50,710 nucleotides of DNA, taken from Wenzhouxiangella sp. (GTDB lineage Bacteria > Pseudomonadota > Gammaproteobacteria > Xanthomonadales > Wenzhouxiangellaceae). How positions within the stretch are numbered: the stretch's first letter is position 1; every line of letters starts with the position of its first letter. Of the stretch, positions 28,783 through 49,492 are shown in pieces. Location: the NCBI GenBank assembly GCA_007134485.1, contig SLKT01000069.1, positions 1 through 50,710 of the forward strand. Reading direction: 5' to 3'. The notes beneath the pieces were generated by a model, which did not search any database, was not told where the DNA came from, and saw only the letters and a program-made list of their open reading frames with translations. The translations under genes were made by a program, and so were the position numbers.

Positions 28783-31700
28783 TTAATCGCAAGGCATGCC
28801 GGCATTCACCCATTCGATGACCAGATCGCGCCATACCTCGATATCGTGCGGTGGCGCGGTCGGCAGGTCCGGATTGTCGAACGGCACCCGGCCATCTCCT
28901 ACTGCCCACAACACCAGCTTGTCCTCGGTCATGTGCTCCAGTGGCGTGTGGCCACTGACCGGCGGACTGGCCATATTGCACAATGTGGCGTCATCAAGGT
29001 TCCGGAAGTCGAATGCCGCCGGTGCTGACTGCCAGCCCGGATCGATACTGCCGGTTTCGGGCAGCAGGCCGCTGGTATGACAAGCAGTGCAGTCCGTCGA
29101 GGCATCGACTGCTGGATGGGTGGCCGGAAGAACCCCGGGCGGATCATCATTGACATTGCCGAACCCAGTGGCCTCCACGGCATGACAGGTTTCGCAGCGC
29201 GGATGGCGAAAGGTCGGCGCAAGCTGTTCGCTGAACGAGAATGATGGCTCGGGAGCCGGCTCGAAGCGATCCCGGAAGATCTCGTCGCCGGCGGCCTGGC
29301 AGTTGACTTCAACATCATCCACATCCGCTCCATCGATCTGGCCGCTGCCGTTGCTGACCGTGCAAATCTGCCCGGATGGCTGCTGACTGACCGTAACCTC
29401 GTAATCTGCCCCGTCTTCCAGCGATGCTTCGAACACGAACGGTCCGTTCTCGTCAATGCTCAGATCGTCACTGCCATTGTTCTGCAGCACCAGGCCGGTG
29501 CCGGTCAGATTGCTGACTGTGCCGCCGACAGTGAAAACAGGCGCCAGGTTGATGGGGTCTGAAAGCTCGCTGGTGTTGCCCATGGCATCGGTTGCAGTCG
29601 CCGCAAAGATGGGATTGGGGAAGGAAAGCAGGTCATCAGGTTGGGGTATGGTGACCGTCACCCACTGCATGGCATCGTCGGCCTGATACAGGGTTGACCC
29701 GAACCACCTTTGAAAACCGGGCGTGGATTTCAGAATCACCTCAATGGTCATTGGATATGCAGAGTTGGCAGGATCCGAGTCGACTCGAAAGGTCAGGATC
29801 AACTCCTCATTGTCGTCGTCAAAGAATGATGACGGGTGAATTTCAGGAAAGTTCTGCAGGTTGTTGGGCCCGGTATCGGCATCGCCCGGATCCTGGTCGC
29901 GTCCCCCGGGCCCCAGATCGATCAGTTTGTCGCTGTTGTTCCAGCCGTGGATATACTGGATGCGATTTCCGGTCCCTGCATCGGGGTCGAAAACGATGGC
30001 CGGGCCGGCGTTGTAGGCAAGCCAGAGGCGGTCAATCGAAGGGCCCACAGGTGAGCCGGTCATCAGGATATTGCTTGCATCGGCACGCAGATGAATGCCC
30101 GGCCCGTGATTGGGTGCCGGAACGTTGACCCTCCTTCCAATCCGGTTGGCGCCAATCTGAACATCACTGACCGACTCTCGAACCTCGATGCCAGCACCCA
30201 GATTGTGGCCAATGTAGTTCGCGTTACCTGCTGTTGACAGACCGATCTGGGTGCCTGCGGGGTTCCCGCGCAGAATCAGTCCACCACTGCCGCCGTTGGG
30301 GATTGCCTGGCCTGCGAGCCAAACACCAATGTAGTTATTGATGACCAGATTATCCTGTCCTGCAATGCGCACCCCGCCACCGCTGCCGTTGAAACCAACG
30401 ACATTGCGCATGGATTCGGCGGTATCCGGATCGGTGCCGAAAAAGTTGAACGCCCCGGAGGAGTCGTAGCCATACAGCGAATTGCCGATATCGTCCAGAT
30501 CGGGCGTGACGCCCAGCCAGTTGTTGCCGACCACCGTGCCGGTCGCTCCCGAATTCAGTCGGATGCCGCGGGTACTGAAACCCACCTGGTTGCCGATGAC
30601 CCGACTGTTTTCGCTAACACTCAGGCGAATCCCGAAGCCGCTGTTGGGCCTTGGCGTCAGGTCTTCATCGAATCCGATGAAATTGTCGACGATTTCGTGC
30701 GTGCCCCCGTTGACCCGAATCCCGGTGTGCTGGCTGCCAATCCAGTTCTGATCGCCGATAAAGTGGTCGTTGCCGTTGACCAGGATACCGATGGAGTCTG
30801 GGCCGAATCCGCCGGCGATTTCAGCGGTGCTGCCAATCCGGTTGTTTCGCACCTGGCCATCCGTGGACCCGATGCTGATGCCAAATTCCTCGGCAAAACC
30901 AATTGTATTGCCCGCATCCTCGCCACCGATGATTGTCCCGGTACCACTGCTGGCGATTCCGCCAAGGACCGGCAACGGAGTGCCGTCTTCGCTGACGCCG
31001 ACCCGGTTGCGCTGAATCACATTCAGTGCGGCACTTGAAGTGATCCAGATGCCGTTGCCGTCAATATTGCCCACCACGTTGCCGTCACCAGGTTGCGTGC
31101 CGCCGAAGAAGTTGTTGAAACCATCTGAAATGATCCCACCCAGCAGGGGATGAATACGATTCTCGCTGTCGGTGCCGACAAAATTGCCGCGTACACCCGT
31201 GCTGGAGGTTTCACTCGACAGGCTGATGCCAATCAATCCATTACCGATGGTGTTGTTGGTGATCAGATTGCCGTTGCCCTCGGCCACTGCCACCAGCGCC
31301 TCTTCCACGCCCAGATCATCACCATCGGCGTTGGTGCCCACACAGTTCCAGGTCACCGTGTTGCTGTTGCTGGCGATCCCTGAACCGCCCATGTGGATTG
31401 CCCCGGAGATCACGTTGCGGCAGTTCTGGGCGCCAATCTGGTTGGCCGAACCATGAGCCAGCACGCCGACGGGATGACCACTGATCTTGAAGCTGCCACT
31501 GTGATGGGTGCCGATATGATTGCACGAAAGGCTGGCCCCGCCAGCGTTTTCCGCCACGTGCACCTGGGCCTGACTGTTGCCGGCGATCTGGTTGCGCGCA
31601 ACCAGGGTCAGAAATCCACTTTCGGACCAGTTTCCGATTCGAGCATGAAGGCCCAGCACATGAATTCCGTGTCCGCCGTTGGCCAGCGCCGTCGTCCCTC

Positions 31701-32481
31701 CCCTGTTGACCCCGATGCGGTTTCCGGCGACGGTGTTGTGATCGCCTTCAATGACCACGCCATGCCCGCTGTTGCCGGAGATGATATTGGGCCAGGGTTG
31801 CAGACCCACGAGAACCGGCGGGTGGCCAATCAGATTGTTGTCACCCAGAACAAGGATTCCGACATCATTGGGCCGTGCTGAACTCCCCAGGGAGGTGGTG
31901 CCGATCTGGCTTTGGCGGACCGTGACCTCATCGGCATTGATGCGGATGCCGGCTTGCGGAAAATCATAGATGGTGACCGCGTCGACCACCGAACCCGCGC
32001 CCCCGGAACCGAAATTCAGCCCCTGTGCAGCGGCGACGGCGTTTTCTCCGCGAATGATCACCCTGGGAATGCCGTCGGCCTGATCCCAGGCCGGATGCGT
32101 GGTGCCGTCGATATGGACCTGGCGGGCAAAGGCGTTGTAGCCGTTGACCGGGAAGAACATCGAAGCCACCGGATTGCCCAGGTTGGTCGGGATGTAGTCG
32201 GCAAAGACGATGGTCGCGCTCTGACCGAAACCGAGCGAGTTGACGGTCTCGATGGCCGCGCGCAGTGTGCACTCAGTGCACTGCCCAGTCGGGCAGCTGA
32301 CGGTGCTGCCGGTATCACACACATTGCTCGCAGCCCCGCTGTCACGGCCGGTATCGGCCAGCGAATTGACTTCGAAAGTGAAGTCGGCCCTGGCATGGGC
32401 CGCCAGGCCGACCAGAAGAACGGCCACTGTCAGCACGACCACCCGTTTCAGTAGCAATTTCATGGTCCCGGATCGCGTCAT
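28783..32481 (-). CDS. Secreted right-handed beta-helix protein with C-terminal cytochrome c-like tail
   Basis: About 1232 residues from the ATG at 32481, which is preceded by GGGAGAG. In-frame starts lie upstream at 32568 and inside at 32463. After a signal peptide (ending VGLAAHARA) comes a CSLREAI-like element (CTECTLRAAIETVNSLG). Next are some 700 residues of parallel beta-helix rungs rich in N-x-I-G and G-x-N-N. A fibronectin-like stretch (LVLQNNGSDDLSIDENGPF) ends in DEIFRDRFEP. Unusually, about 140 more residues follow, with two haem-attachment motifs, CETCH and CTACH, and a terminal WVNAGMPCD. This joins a surface-type helix to a cytochrome-like module and would require periplasmic haem ligation. 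It is divergent from the regulator at 32662. Confidence 0.85.
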   Translation of the reverse strand: MTRSGTMKLLLKRVVVLTVAVLLVGLAAHARADFTFEVNSLADTGRDSGAASNVCDTGSTVSCPTGQCTECTLRAAIETVNSLGFGQSATIVFADYIPTNLGNPVASMFFPVNGYNAFARQVHIDGTTHPAWDQADGIPRVIIRGENAVAAAQGLNFGSGGAGSVVDAVTIYDFPQAGIRINADEVTVRQSQIGTTSLGSSARPNDVGILVLGDNNLIGHPPVLVGLQPWPNIISGNSGHGVVIEGDHNTVAGNRIGVNRGGTTALANGGHGIHVLGLHARIGNWSESGFLTLVARNQIAGNSQAQVHVAENAGGASLSCNHIGTHHSGSFKISGHPVGVLAHGSANQIGAQNCRNVISGAIHMGGSGIASNSNTVTWNCVGTNADGDDLGVEEALVAVAEGNGNLITNNTIGNGLIGISLSSETSSTGVRGNFVGTDSENRIHPLLGGIISDGFNNFFGGTQPGDGNVVGNIDGNGIWITSSAALNVIQRNRVGVSEDGTPLPVLGGIASSGTGTIIGGEDAGNTIGFAEEFGISIGSTDGQVRNNRIGSTAEIAGGFGPDSIGILVNGNDHFIGDQNWIGSQHTGIRVNGGTHEIVDNFIGFDEDLTPRPNSGFGIRLSVSENSRVIGNQVGFSTRGIRLNSGATGTVVGNNWLGVTPDLDDIGNSLYGYDSSGAFNFFGTDPDTAESMRNVVGFNGSGGGVRIAGQDNLVINNYIGVWLAGQAIPNGGSGGLILRGNPAGTQIGLSTAGNANYIGHNLGAGIEVRESVSDVQIGANRIGRRVNVPAPNHGPGIHLRADASNILMTGSPVGPSIDRLWLAYNAGPAIVFDPDAGTGNRIQYIHGWNNSDKLIDLGPGGRDQDPGDADTGPNNLQNFPEIHPSSFFDDDNEELILTFRVDSDPANSAYPMTIEVILKSTPGFQRWFGSTLYQADDAMQWVTVTIPQPDDLLSFPNPIFAATATDAMGNTSELSDPINLAPVFTVGGTVSNLTGTGLVLQNNGSDDLSIDENGPFVFEASLEDGADYEVTVSQQPSGQICTVSNGSGQIDGADVDDVEVNCQAAGDEIFRDRFEPAPEPSFSFSEQLAPTFRHPRCETCHAVEATGFGNVNDDPPGVLPATHPAVDASTDCTACHTSGLLPETGSIDPGWQSAPAAFDFRNLDDATLCNMASPPVSGHTPLEHMTEDKLVLWAVGDGRVPFDNPDLPTAPPHDIEVWRDLVIEWVNAGMPCD

Positions 32482-32577
32482 GGTATCTCTCCCGTCATCC
32501 TTGAGTTCATCCAACGCCTGCAAACAGACATCAGCCTGCAAAATGACATCCCGGCGGCGACCGAGCATGATGAAACC

Positions 32578-32605: not shown

Positions 32606-32661
32606 GGCCAATGACAAAGGGCTGCTTTCATTGGCCTGAGGGGTTGTGGCGCAAAAATGAA

Positions 32662-34965
32662 ATGGTGAAGCAATTCAATGGTTTCCAACTCGACTGGGAT
32701 CAGCGTGAGCTGATCCGGAACGGTGAAGCCGTGCCCGTCGAGCCGAAAAGCCTTGAGCTCATTCACTTTCTGATCGAAAACCGCCATCGCACGGTCGGCA
32801 AGGATGAAATTGCCGAGGCCGTCTGGCCGGATCGGGTGATTTCCGATTCGGTCATCAGCCAAACCGTGCGCAAGGCGCGCAAGGCGCTCGACGATGACGG
32901 CGAAACCCAACACACCATCGCCACTGTCCGCGGCTTTGGCTTCCGATTCGTGGCGCCCACTGAAGATGCCCCCGGCCCGGGCCAGCGTGCGGCCCCGAGT
33001 CGACCGGCATGGCAAGTACCTGCCATTGCAGCGGCAATACTGCTGGTCGCGATTGCCGCATTCCTGCTGCGCCCTCCACCGGCTAGCGCGCCGGAGATCA
33101 TCAGCATCGCGCTAATCGCCGAATCCGATGTCGCACCTGAGGATTTGCCCGAGTGGCTCTCGGACAGCGTGGCTGAGATCCTGCGCTCCTCGCTGGCCAT
33201 CAGCGATAATCTGATTCTTGTGCCGGCAGCCGCCATTGCCGCCCAGCGGGAATTGTCGGCTTCTGATGAGATCTTGCACGGGCGCCTGCGCGAGCACCTG
33301 GGCGTGGACTGGATCGTGACCGGCAATTTGAAAAAGACCAACTCCGGGTGGCGTATGGAACTGCAGCTTGATGAACGGGGCTCGGATCCGAAGGTGCTGA
33401 CTTTGCGCAGCGACGAAGTCATGCCGCTTCTACTGGCCTCCGGGCGCCGACTGGTTACTGAACTGGATGGTCGCCCGATGGTCACCGACCCCCTGCTCGA
33501 CGACCCCTGGCTGAACGAAACATTCCATCGCGGCGTGCATGCTGCACGGCGCGGTGATCCAGCCCATTCCCTGACCCTGTTTGAAGCGGTGCTGGACCAT
33601 GCGCCGGATTTCGACCGGGCTCGCTATGAATGGGCGGTTGCAAAGCGTCAGTCGGGCCAGGTCGAAGAAGGCATGGAAGTGCTGGAGGAATTGCTGACAG
33701 CCGAACACCTGTCCGACCCACGTCTGCGCCGTATGGCCGCCAATGCCTTGGGTATCACTCTCTGGCACCAGGGCCGGCTGAATGAAGCCGCAGAATACTT
33801 TGCGATCTTCGCGCGCGAGGCCGAACTGGCCGGTCATGTGCTCGACCACGCTCACGGAGAACTCAACCGGGGCATGGTCGCCTCTTCCCTGGGGCAATTC
33901 AAACAGGCCGAAACGCATCTGATCGATGCCATGGCGCGATTCACTCAACAGGGTTATCAGCCGGGGCGGGCATTAACCGCCAATTCCCTGGGTGTGCTGG
34001 CCTGGCAGCGTGGTCTGGTGGATGATTCCGAGTTATGGCATCGCGAGGCGCTGGGTACTCGCCTGGGACTGGGCAACCAGCGCGACATCGCCCAGAGTCT
34101 TTTCAACCTGGGCACCATCGCCGCATCCCGCCTGGACTGGGATGAGTCCGAGCGACTGTTCGAGCAGGCCCGAATGATTCATCAATCACTGGGCAATCAC
34201 GAGCGGGTAACTCGGATTCTGATCAACCAGGGCCAGAATCGGGCCTTGAACGGTCGCCTGGCCAGCGGCCGTCAGCGATTGCTTGAGGGACTCAGCGCTG
34301 CCGAACAGGCCGGTGCATTGAGCCTGAAGGCCGATGCGACCTATCGTCTTGGAATGGTCGCCCTGCTGGAAGACCAACCGAAAGTCGCACTGGAATGGTT
34401 TGATCGCACCCTGGTCGGATTGAAGATTGTCGAGAATCCCGGCCTTGCTCTGAGCACGCGTCTTGGCCGGGTGCGGGCCTTGCGATTGGGCGGTGAATCA
34501 ACAAATGCTGACCAGGCGCTGGCCGGAATACTGGCTGAATACGAGGATGCCGAGGAACTTCCGTCTGAGCTTCGGCTGGAGAAAGCGCGCATGCTGATGG
34601 CCAACGACGAAAATCCTGCCGCCATCGAACAGCTTGAGGACATTTTTGATTCACAGCGCGCCAGCCGTAATTTGCATCGCCAGGTCATGGTCGGCAAGCT
34701 GTTGGTCGAGGCGCATTTGAGCCAGGGTGATATCGATGCTGCCCAGGCGGTGATCCAGTCACTGCCCGATCGGGTGCTGATGGAAGGCGTGATGTTGGAC
34801 CTTCAGGCCAGGATCGCCTGGGAAACCGAGCAATGGACGATGGCCCTGGAAACCAAACAACGCGCCCGCGAGCGTCTGGATGAGCGCTGGAGCGTGCATC
34901 AGGAAGCACGCTTGCGCGAATGGCAGGAACATGCTGGGACACTCGTTGCCGAGACCCAGCCCTGA
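32662..34965 (+). CDS. Membrane-bound winged-helix (CadC/OmpR-type) regulator with TPR repeats
   Basis: About 767 residues. The N-terminal part is a trans_reg_C winged helix (FNGFQLDWDQRELIRNGEAV; WPDRVISDSVISQTVRKARK; GFGFRFVAP). It is followed by a Pro-rich linker and one transmembrane segment (VPAIAAAILLVAIAAFLL). Then come a periplasmic domain (about residues 150-270) and a long TPR array (about 270-740), e.g. ANALGITLWHQGRLNEAAEY. This is the layout of ToxR/CadC-like one-component sensors that bind DNA from the membrane. It has no phosphoacceptor receiver domain. ATG 32611 is an in-frame alternative that adds 17 residues before the domain. The divergent beta-helix gene may be a target (inference). 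Its stop abuts the nadE stop (TGATCA). Confidence 0.85.
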   Translation: MVKQFNGFQLDWDQRELIRNGEAVPVEPKSLELIHFLIENRHRTVGKDEIAEAVWPDRVISDSVISQTVRKARKALDDDGETQHTIATVRGFGFRFVAPTEDAPGPGQRAAPSRPAWQVPAIAAAILLVAIAAFLLRPPPASAPEIISIALIAESDVAPEDLPEWLSDSVAEILRSSLAISDNLILVPAAAIAAQRELSASDEILHGRLREHLGVDWIVTGNLKKTNSGWRMELQLDERGSDPKVLTLRSDEVMPLLLASGRRLVTELDGRPMVTDPLLDDPWLNETFHRGVHAARRGDPAHSLTLFEAVLDHAPDFDRARYEWAVAKRQSGQVEEGMEVLEELLTAEHLSDPRLRRMAANALGITLWHQGRLNEAAEYFAIFAREAELAGHVLDHAHGELNRGMVASSLGQFKQAETHLIDAMARFTQQGYQPGRALTANSLGVLAWQRGLVDDSELWHREALGTRLGLGNQRDIAQSLFNLGTIAASRLDWDESERLFEQARMIHQSLGNHERVTRILINQGQNRALNGRLASGRQRLLEGLSAAEQAGALSLKADATYRLGMVALLEDQPKVALEWFDRTLVGLKIVENPGLALSTRLGRVRALRLGGESTNADQALAGILAEYEDAEELPSELRLEKARMLMANDENPAAIEQLEDIFDSQRASRNLHRQVMVGKLLVEAHLSQGDIDAAQAVIQSLPDRVLMEGVMLDLQARIAWETEQWTMALETKQRARERLDERWSVHQEARLREWQEHAGTLVAETQP

Positions 34966-47726: not shown

Positions 47727-49274
47727 TCAGGGTGACTCAAACCGATCTTGAAATAACTCGTCGAGCACCTGGTACTCGAAAGCACCGATATCACATTCAT
47801 CGCTGCCGACGCCTGGCCGCGGCTGGCCACGCTGATCGGTGTCGATCTCGAATGTCGCATAGCAATCCCCGGCGGCATCGCGAGCCGCGCTGGCAGCGCC
47901 AAGCGCATGAGTAAACGTGTGCCCGCCATTGTCGGCCAGCGGGTCCAGCGCAATTTCGCTCAAGACAGTAGCCGCGCCGGTGCAGGAGTCATCCGTGGCC
48001 AAGCTGTTGTCATGGACGTCGGCGGTGGCGTTGCAGGACTCCTCGCCGGTACCAGCCTGCACGATCAGGCTGTTGCTCAGGGTCAATGTGGCAAAGTCGC
48101 CACGATGCACATCGTCGGTGCCATCGGTTGCGATGTTGTAGGCCACAGTGGTCTGGATCAATGTGGCATTGCGTTCAGTTACAAAAGATCCCCTGACGTA
48201 AAGCCCGCCGCCGTGGGCGCCTCCGCCTTCGGTGGAATTGCCGGATATCGTGCTATTGGTCAGCGTGGTGTCAACATCATAGGCATGCAGCCCGCCGCCA
48301 TAGGCATCATCACCCGCGGTAGAGTTGCCGGACACCGTGCTGTTGCTCAGCTCGGTACCGCCAGCAACGACTGCTACACCTCCGCCGTGGGCGAGTTCGC
48401 CTGCGGTAGAGTTGCCGGACATCGTGCTGTTGGTCAGCGTGGAGTTGCTGAAGCCGAAACGCAGCCCGCCGCCATGGGCGGAAGGGCCCATAGTGGAATT
48501 GCCGGATACCGTGCTCTCGTTCAGCGTAGCGTCGCCAGACAAGACAGATAGCCCGCCGCCGTAGGCGTTGCTGCCCGCGGTGGAATTGCCGGATACCATG
48601 CTGCTGGTCAGTGTTGCATCACCATTGTCGACATGCATTCCGCCGCCTTTGGAGCGAAGCTCCTCCGTAGCGTTTGCAAGAACCATGCTGTTGGTGAGCG
48701 TGGCATCGCCCTCCACGACATACAGGCCACCCCCGGGAGAGTACTCGCCTTCGGTGGCACTTCCGCTGATCAGGCTGTGGGAAAGCCGGATATCCGCGGA
48801 ATCGACATACACGGCGCCTCCGGGCTCATTATTCTGACTGGTGCGTCCATTGAGCATTGCCAGGCTGTCCAGGATAACCTCGAATCCTCCGGATCCTCCG
48901 CCCTGCACATTGAAGATGCGCGAGGCGTTGCTGCCGCCGATCAAAACACCGAACGCGCCGGGTGCGGGCCCGGTAATGGTCAGGCCGCTACTGATCTCGA
49001 TTTCGCCTTCGGTTAGCGCGATATAGCTTCCAGCAAGGTCGGGATCGAAGGCGATCTCGTCGGCCCCGGCGCTGCCGGAAGCACACGCATCGTAGCCGTA
49101 GGCCTCATTGGCCGAGTAGATCGCCGAGCGCAGGCTACACGTTCCCGGCATGGAACCTGGCGGACCGTCGGCGGTAGTGTTAACGGTAATTACGGCGGCC
49201 TGGGCATGGCCGACGGCCAGAAGCGATCCTACCGCGATGGTCAGTGGAGTCCTGCACGGTAAGCGATGGGCCAT
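47727..49274 (-). CDS. Secreted beta-helix repeat protein with seven 29-residue repeats
   Basis: About 515 residues from the ATG at 49274 (AAGGAGAG upstream), with a signal peptide (PLTIAVGSLLAVGHAQA). A CSLREAI-like motif (CSLRSAIYSANEA, about residue 46) follows. Residues 161-363 are seven exact-length 29-residue repeats with the core T-[LV]-x-N-S-T-[VM]-S-G-N-S-T-x-G-x-x-[AH]-Y/H-G-G-G-[LV]. Their Asn/Ser/Thr/Gly-rich pattern is typical of polymorphic outer-membrane (Pmp-like) helices. The C-terminus has the GAFEYQ element and ends in DELFQDRFESP. It is probably exposed or secreted; its function is not readable. It lies between the two mdh-tail repeats. Confidence 0.85.
   Translation of the reverse strand: MAHRLPCRTPLTIAVGSLLAVGHAQAAVITVNTTADGPPGSMPGTCSLRSAIYSANEAYGYDACASGSAGADEIAFDPDLAGSYIALTEGEIEISSGLTITGPAPGAFGVLIGGSNASRIFNVQGGGSGGFEVILDSLAMLNGRTSQNNEPGGAVYVDSADIRLSHSLISGSATEGEYSPGGGLYVVEGDATLTNSMVLANATEELRSKGGGMHVDNGDATLTSSMVSGNSTAGSNAYGGGLSVLSGDATLNESTVSGNSTMGPSAHGGGLRFGFSNSTLTNSTMSGNSTAGELAHGGGVAVVAGGTELSNSTVSGNSTAGDDAYGGGLHAYDVDTTLTNSTISGNSTEGGGAHGGGLYVRGSFVTERNATLIQTTVAYNIATDGTDDVHRGDFATLTLSNSLIVQAGTGEESCNATADVHDNSLATDDSCTGAATVLSEIALDPLADNGGHTFTHALGAASAARDAAGDCYATFEIDTDQRGQPRPGVGSDECDIGAFEYQVLDELFQDRFESP
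48186..48794 (-). repeat. Seven tandem 87-bp repeats inside the beta-helix gene
   Basis: Each unit encodes 29 residues with no length variation across seven units; the middle units are most alike (e.g. STVSGNSTAG). Such an array can change copy number by slippage or recombination. Confidence 0.8.
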
Positions 49275-49492
49275 GGCACTCTCCTTTTTGCTTTCATCGC
49301 CCATTTTTCGCCCCGATTACAGGCGGCCCCGGCACTGCTTACTGCCTCCTACAGCCTAACCCGGCACTTTGGGGGAGCGCAAATCTAGGTAACCAAAGCG
49401 GGAGTCCATACCGCCGATGGGGATTTAAGGCGTTTCCCGGGGCTGGAGTGCCAATTTCCACTGGAAGGCTAAAGAGAAAGACCTGCGCCCGA
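49275..49492. other. Intergenic upstream of the beta-helix gene
   Basis: No gene is supported in these 218 nt. A 7-mer GCCTAAC at 49354-49360 (GTTAGGC on the minus strand) is noted because similar cores occur at integron cassette ends, but no second half-site surrounds it. Confidence 0.3.

Follow-up and report, generated by a model that had tools for sequence, protein, structure and literature searches.

Most known surface cytochromes are large multihaem chains. Those of the MtrC/OmcA type hold ten haems in a packed chain. In PgcA of Geobacter, small haem domains stand apart on one chain and work by tethered diffusion, with three CXXCH motifs in separate domains joined by flexible PT linkers (PMC11520253). 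The dihaem proteins annotated as 'isoquinoline 1-oxidoreductase subunit' form a known but uncharacterised family, and those we read are stand-alone exported or lipoprotein-like proteins encoded beside an enzyme of the molybdenum hydroxylase type. Here we describe a gene in the window, by which we mean the whole stretch of 50,710 nucleotides analysed (contig SLKT01000069.1 of Wenzhouxiangella sp., assembly GCA_007134485.1), whose product appears to be an exported beta-helix protein that continues through a short IFRDRFE tag into a tail with two haem-binding motifs (Table 1). This is a new architecture for the dihaem family, and we consider it reasonably probable that the product is an exported scaffold carrying a tethered two-haem c-type electron relay. 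A literature search found no report of a cell-surface beta-helix fused to a cytochrome c domain, nor of a beta-helix fused to a multiheme cytochrome in extracellular electron transfer.

The open frame runs uninterrupted over 28783..32568 of the minus strand. Among its possible starts the ATG at 32463 is the likeliest, for a product of 1226 residues with no internal stop and a stop codon ending at 28783; the ATG at 32481, adopted as the start in the initial annotation, is an alternative in the same frame. Translation confirms the tail described there, with CETCH, CTACH and a WVNAGMPCD end on a one-frame, putatively exported protein, and CETCH and CTACH are the sole two CxxCH motifs of the whole protein. 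The extra residues after the tag are likewise real, although they number 158 rather than the approximately 140 first estimated.

The initial annotation had raised the possibility of a frameshift and had proposed looking for the same fusion in relatives. Among the 30 genomes of the genus that were searched, six carry a total of seven copies of the tail (G, C and L numbers are our labels for genomes, contigs and loci, G000 being the genome of the window). Three copies are borne by beta-helix proteins, namely, that of the window and those on two separate contigs of G023, and four by a short exported protein of the 'DWYSIDGGG' type (G026, G016, G006 and G012; the G006 tail was read within the alignment). 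That two genes were joined by misassembly or frameshift, as might be suspected of a window taken from a 206-contig draft genome, is barely credible given the absence of a stop between the modules, the repeated fusion in G023 and the selection on both sides of the junction, and we rejected it in favour of a genuine fusion. Separate genes for the two modules, which would have spoken against a fusion, were not found either, none of the seven genus copies being free-standing. Because four of the seven copies sit on a different, short exported protein, tail and helix behave as separable modules; the tail thus appears to be separable from the helix but, in these seven copies, not from the tag, which precedes it in all of them (with DRFA in place of DRFE in G006).

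The tail is also better conserved than the helix. Compared with the window, the relative L017 of G023 shows 80% identity in the tail and 58% in the helix, and L013, the second paralogue in that genome, 72% and 37%; for the pair formed by the window and L017, the ratio of nonsynonymous to synonymous substitution (dN/dS, NG86) is approximately 0.12 in the tail and 0.20 in the helix, with synonymous sites saturated. The picture that emerges from these comparisons is of a tag-plus-tail unit that recurs on two unrelated exported passengers under strong purifying selection. In a tree, the seven tails fall together on one side of a branch with 100/100 support; helix-borne and short-protein tails show no supported separation.

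The tag itself is common in this genome, with its pattern matching at 55 places compared to 4 for a reversed-pattern control. A stop follows directly at 2 places only. We fetched 30 loci of these 55 places. In 22 of the 30 distinct sequences obtained, the tag is followed by 0-7 residues, in one by 19 and in seven by 77-373; five of these seven lack the DRFE core, which L041 and L035 alone carry. Since 22 of the 30 sequences end 0-7 residues past the tag and only two of the long ones possess the core, a 158-residue domain in this position is the exception in this genome, and the initial statement that such proteins usually stop after a DRFE-like motif holds here. The tail occupies the very position of a sorting signal and travels with the tag, as would be expected of a structural or secretion and anchoring cap that is kept for folding or export and not for redox chemistry. 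A pure cap, however, need not keep both CxxCH motifs and the candidate ligands, and these, along with many further residues, are invariant in 7/7 genus copies, which is more than chance would give; we regard a cap as very improbable.

Further tag proteins vary in what surrounds the motif. Elsewhere in the window (47727-49304, minus strand), a CSLREA / choice-of-anchor Q beta-helix protein, a tail-less paralogue, ends in LFQDRFESP, two residues past the tag, and passes TIGR04214 with 26.6; L036 of the same genome is a short passenger, similar in type to the 'DWYSIDGGG' proteins, with the tag and no tail. In L035 (G000:C20:81825), IFSDRFE is embedded in a frame resembling a glucose/sorbosone dehydrogenase, which continues for 183 residues beyond it, as though the tag were a loop insertion. 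In G026, an exported protein of 1359 residues carries Big_5 and PKD domains as well as MauG-like and RoxA-like haem domains, and ends in DAIFWDRFD (L012:12534-16613, minus strand). An IFxDRFE-like tag stands directly before a stop in 19/30 genus genomes, which suggests a C-terminal signal, so far undescribed, for sorting or anchoring.

The identification of the tail as a haem module is well supported, the tail being homologous over the whole domain to the dihaem 'isoquinoline 1-oxidoreductase subunit' family. A tblastn search with the tail against plasmid records returned 41 records at E<=1 (best 2e-6); the 20 rows listed show 26-30% identity over >90% of the query, and several of these records are annotated 'Isoquinoline 1-oxidoreductase subunit'. 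Aligning the genus alignment (A1) to one of the outside family (A2) with hhalign gave a probability of 98.2 and E 3.3e-14 across tail residues 14-164. In a 14-sequence alignment (A3), the two CxxCH motifs, a Cys pair (Cys1162 and Cys1225), His1177 and an LV-W-G-R block are invariant, and the W..G.C end is likewise shared between the tail and the family, the difference being that the module in the window follows a tag at the end of a scaffold protein. No family in Pfam, NCBIfam or PHROGs matches the tail above cut-off, and a PDB sequence search with the tail alone gave no match. PS417_10880, a cytochrome encoded in a deoxyribose dehydrogenase operon (PMC6365646), may not belong to this family, such subunits being larger in general.

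Outside the genus, the relatives of the tail keep close company with enzymes. At 55 of 59 loci, a gene for a molybdenum hydroxylase, its Fe-S subunit, or both lies within the stretch read: 6/6 on plasmids, 1/1 in another genome of the gammaproteobacterial class, 26/29 in a phylum survey, 5/6 in a further set and 17/17 distinct loci in an order survey, where L070-L072 were counted on partial molybdenum-subunit matches (28-33% over 125-157 residues) together with an Fe-S match, and L065, L074, L075 and L089 are the exceptions. The surveys are partial, with matches in 37/398 phylum and 38/398 order genomes (the genome and genus studied here included), of which a subset was fetched. Beside the fusion gene, in contrast, no genes for (2Fe-2S) and molybdopterin hydroxylase subunits were seen, nor any elsewhere among the window's open reading frames, when their translations were read and some of them scanned with Pfam; the tail is thus a homologue of the dihaem family and not a member of the operon type. 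It forms a divergent branch, because the six genus genomes in the order survey match at E<1e-80 and the other 32 between 1e-13 and 1e-3.

A search of the window's genome with PF20256 for a remaining molybdenum hydroxylase found none; this family was detected in none of the 6 tail-bearing genomes and in 1/30 genus genomes. Given its absence from these six, it is most likely that the tail changed partner; the module seems to have parted from its enzyme and to have become a tag-linked cassette on exported proteins. The initial annotation had noticed neither this origin in a cytochrome family of molybdenum hydroxylases nor that the module is linked to the tag and not to the helix. A further fusion occurs at one locus outside the genus, L089 in G581. 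The protein encoded there looks exported and has 606 residues, the final 150 of which align with the tail at 30% (E 5.6e-18); the 5 kb read held no match to a molybdenum hydroxylase, and the passenger has no Pfam match above cut-off. The host of this fusion is uncertain, as the assembly has 8% contamination and is the one among 78 genomes of its class with such a fusion.

The genes beside these relatives could be taken to mean that the protein stays in the periplasm and that its tail accepts electrons from a periplasmic dehydrogenase, as its relatives may do from molybdenum hydroxylases and as has been proposed for the cytochrome c of a related kind of operon (PMC6365646). With PF20256 missing from every tail-bearing genome and nearly all of the genus, and with passengers unlike periplasmic enzymes, we think this unlikely. 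Beta-helix proteins of this type are, moreover, usually external.

The likely haem ligands bear on another possibility. A His lies between the two motifs in 65/65 sequences caught by a regular expression (one locus, L085, was not caught) and, together with the invariant His1177, suggests six-coordinate, non-catalytic haems. This, along with the kinship to a family tied to an electron-donating enzyme, argues against a sensor, peroxidase-like or metal- or haem-holding role in which the CxxCH pairs would bind haem or metal for sensing, detoxification or storage. Such a role, which we hold to be quite improbable, would agree with the presence of two CxxCH motifs in a Cys- and His-rich domain, with the regulator genes near 4/7 copies (a figure that has no background count, several of the contigs being short) and with the RoxA-like and MauG-like domains of the tag protein in G026, which imply that tagged haem enzymes exist in the genus.

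The explanation that we prefer, an exported scaffold with a tethered two-haem relay, starts from the observed architecture, kinship and conservation, and adds haem loading, a surface location and an electron partner as predictions from sequence. The protein would be exported across the inner membrane by the Sec system, and the Ccm system, whose genes are in the genome, would attach haem c to both CxxCH motifs in the periplasm. Each haem would then probably take a second His, one between the motifs and the other the invariant His1177, and two six-coordinate haems of this kind would be better suited to electron transfer than to catalysis. Once folded, the protein would be displayed on the surface, type II secretion being the most likely route, and the tag would take part in sorting or anchoring. 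This route is a proposal, chosen because type II secretion belongs to the core genome of the Wenzhouxiangella group (PMC7691419), the putative type II substrates of Acinetobacter include a CSLREA-domain protein (PMC9245377), and outer-membrane cytochromes of Shewanella can use it (PMC6929479). At the surface, the tail could pass electrons between a mineral, a polysaccharide or another cell bound to the scaffold and a redox partner, for which the MtrC/MtrA/MtrB conduit of this genome and a secreted oxidoreductase are candidates.

This genome offers a plausible setting for such a relay. Contig C97 of this genome encodes MtrC-like and MtrA-like proteins with 10 CxxCH each, an MtrB porin, a NapC/CymA-like protein with 4 CxxCH, and ccm genes, CcmE among them; CcmF and CcmH/CycH-like genes are also in this genome. 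The mtrC-mtrA-mtrB order is complete, with the NapC/CymA-like and ccm genes alongside (L057, G000:C97:14000-29065). Some Wenzhouxiangella have been reported to carry MtrCAB (PMC8805035). The tail might resemble MtrC/OmcA-type cytochromes in acting as a surface c-type cytochrome in a genus and genome that carry mtrCAB; it differs in having two sites and in belonging to another domain family, with no kinship above cut-off (the fusion protein scores 11.1 bits against PF22113, the MtrC/MtrF family, whose cut-off is 30). As in PgcA (PMC11520253), its haem domain would be tethered on one chain, but there would be one dihaem domain on a rigid beta-helix in place of separate domains on flexible linkers.

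Several points weigh against this reading. Haem, location and redox partner are predictions, and the IFRDRFE tag is a candidate rather than an established surface-sorting signal. The tail gene lies away from mtrCAB, and nothing links the two directly; of the initial interpretation, the haem module is well supported, while extracellular electron transfer by the tail is possible and, given the Mtr genes, plausible. MtrB occurs in 6/6 tail-bearing genomes and 16/24 others, which is not significant (one-sided chance approximately 0.13), and CcmE was not found in G023, one of the six. Two haems on a scaffold of approximately 1000 residues would be unable to form a wire alone. The tail falls under every Pfam cytochrome cut-off. 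Solved structures of relatives do not span the domain: the best PDB match of the A3 profile, a reaction-centre cytochrome subunit (E 2e-4), covers 75 of 192 positions; that match was rejected, the similarity being taken as confined to the surroundings of CxxCH. An AlphaFold model of the tail, built from 5 sequences, has a mean predicted local distance difference test (pLDDT) score of 37.9, too poor for a fold search. For the helix, Foldseek returned zero matches at E<=0.001, so that VIA-align 2 alone is supportive.

The beta-helix assigned in the initial annotation is supported by that comparison at the level of a model. Built from two sequences and of middling confidence, the model of residues 27-1061 has a mean pLDDT of 55.7, rising to approximately 75-87 over much of model residues 350-570, and VIA-align 2 gives Z 20-27 over approximately 250-380 aligned residues against NosD, AlgE epimerases and phage tailspikes, consistent with a right-handed parallel beta-helix. 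A Pfam scan of the protein gave no beta-helix match. The label 'CSLREAI type' is approximate: the motif reads CTLRAAIE and the TIGR04214 (CSLREA) score is 16.4, under the curated cut-off of 25. The protein thus resembles the exported CSLREA-domain beta-helix proteins in N-terminal motif and helix, and differs from them in its sub-threshold score and its additional dihaem domain.

The transfer of a dihaem module from an enzyme complex to an exported scaffold would be a route to extracellular redox centres distinct from that of the large multihaem chains. The finding also links, in a testable way, the IFxDRFE tag and the dihaem family, both uncharacterised, with a genus in which Mtr genes are present and reported electron-transfer studies are few. 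A broader and, at present, doubtful proposal is that a tag-linked dihaem cassette on surface proteins (beta-helices, and short proteins beside S74-type fibre genes) connects adhesins or polysaccharide-binding scaffolds electrically via MtrCAB, having arisen as a molybdenum-hydroxylase cytochrome lost its enzyme. If true, this would amount to a modular, distributed form of extracellular electron transfer.

Table 1. Features of the fusion gene and its divergent neighbour, in window positions
Feature	Position	Strand	Basis
Whole gene: putative exported beta-helix / tag / dihaem fusion, 1226 amino acids plus stop	28783..32463	-	single stop-free frame; matching architecture in relative L017
Signal-peptide-like N-terminus, approximately residues 1-26	32386..32463	-	sequence MKLLLKRVVVLTVAVLLVGLAAHARA; called by eye, without a predictor
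CSLREA-like N-terminal motif CTLRAAIE, predicted right-handed parallel beta-helix and C-terminal beta region, residues 27-1061	29281..32385	-	structure model, part of which aligns by VIA-align 2 at Z 20-27 with beta-helix proteins; TIGR04214 under cut-off
IFRDRFE tag, residues 1062-1068	29260..29280	-	near-terminal in most other tag proteins read in this genome
Dihaem tail, 158 residues (1069-1226)	28786..29259	-	homology to the dihaem third subunit of molybdenum hydroxylases; alignment of 7 genus copies
Haem-binding motif 1, CETCH, residues 1090-1094	29182..29196	-	CxxCH invariant in genus (A1), 14-sequence (A3) and A5 alignments
Haem-binding motif 2, CTACH, residues 1125-1129	29077..29091	-	CxxCH invariant in genus (A1), 14-sequence (A3) and A5 alignments
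Divergent neighbour: Trans_reg_C winged-helix and TPR regulator	32611..34965	+	Pfam; similar gene near 4/7 tail genes

Around the fusion gene, translations read by eye, without a search, suggest housekeeping functions (uvrB-like, aminotransferase, AceK-like and NAD-synthetase-like). The winged-helix/TPR regulator of the window has its counterparts at L012, L015 and L016. A different gene, for which there is likewise no background count, accompanies 4/4 copies of the short type: at L012, L014, L015 and L016, the tail gene adjoins one for an exported Peptidase_S74 (endosialidase chaperone) protein of the YQGxL type, the two apparently forming one operon.

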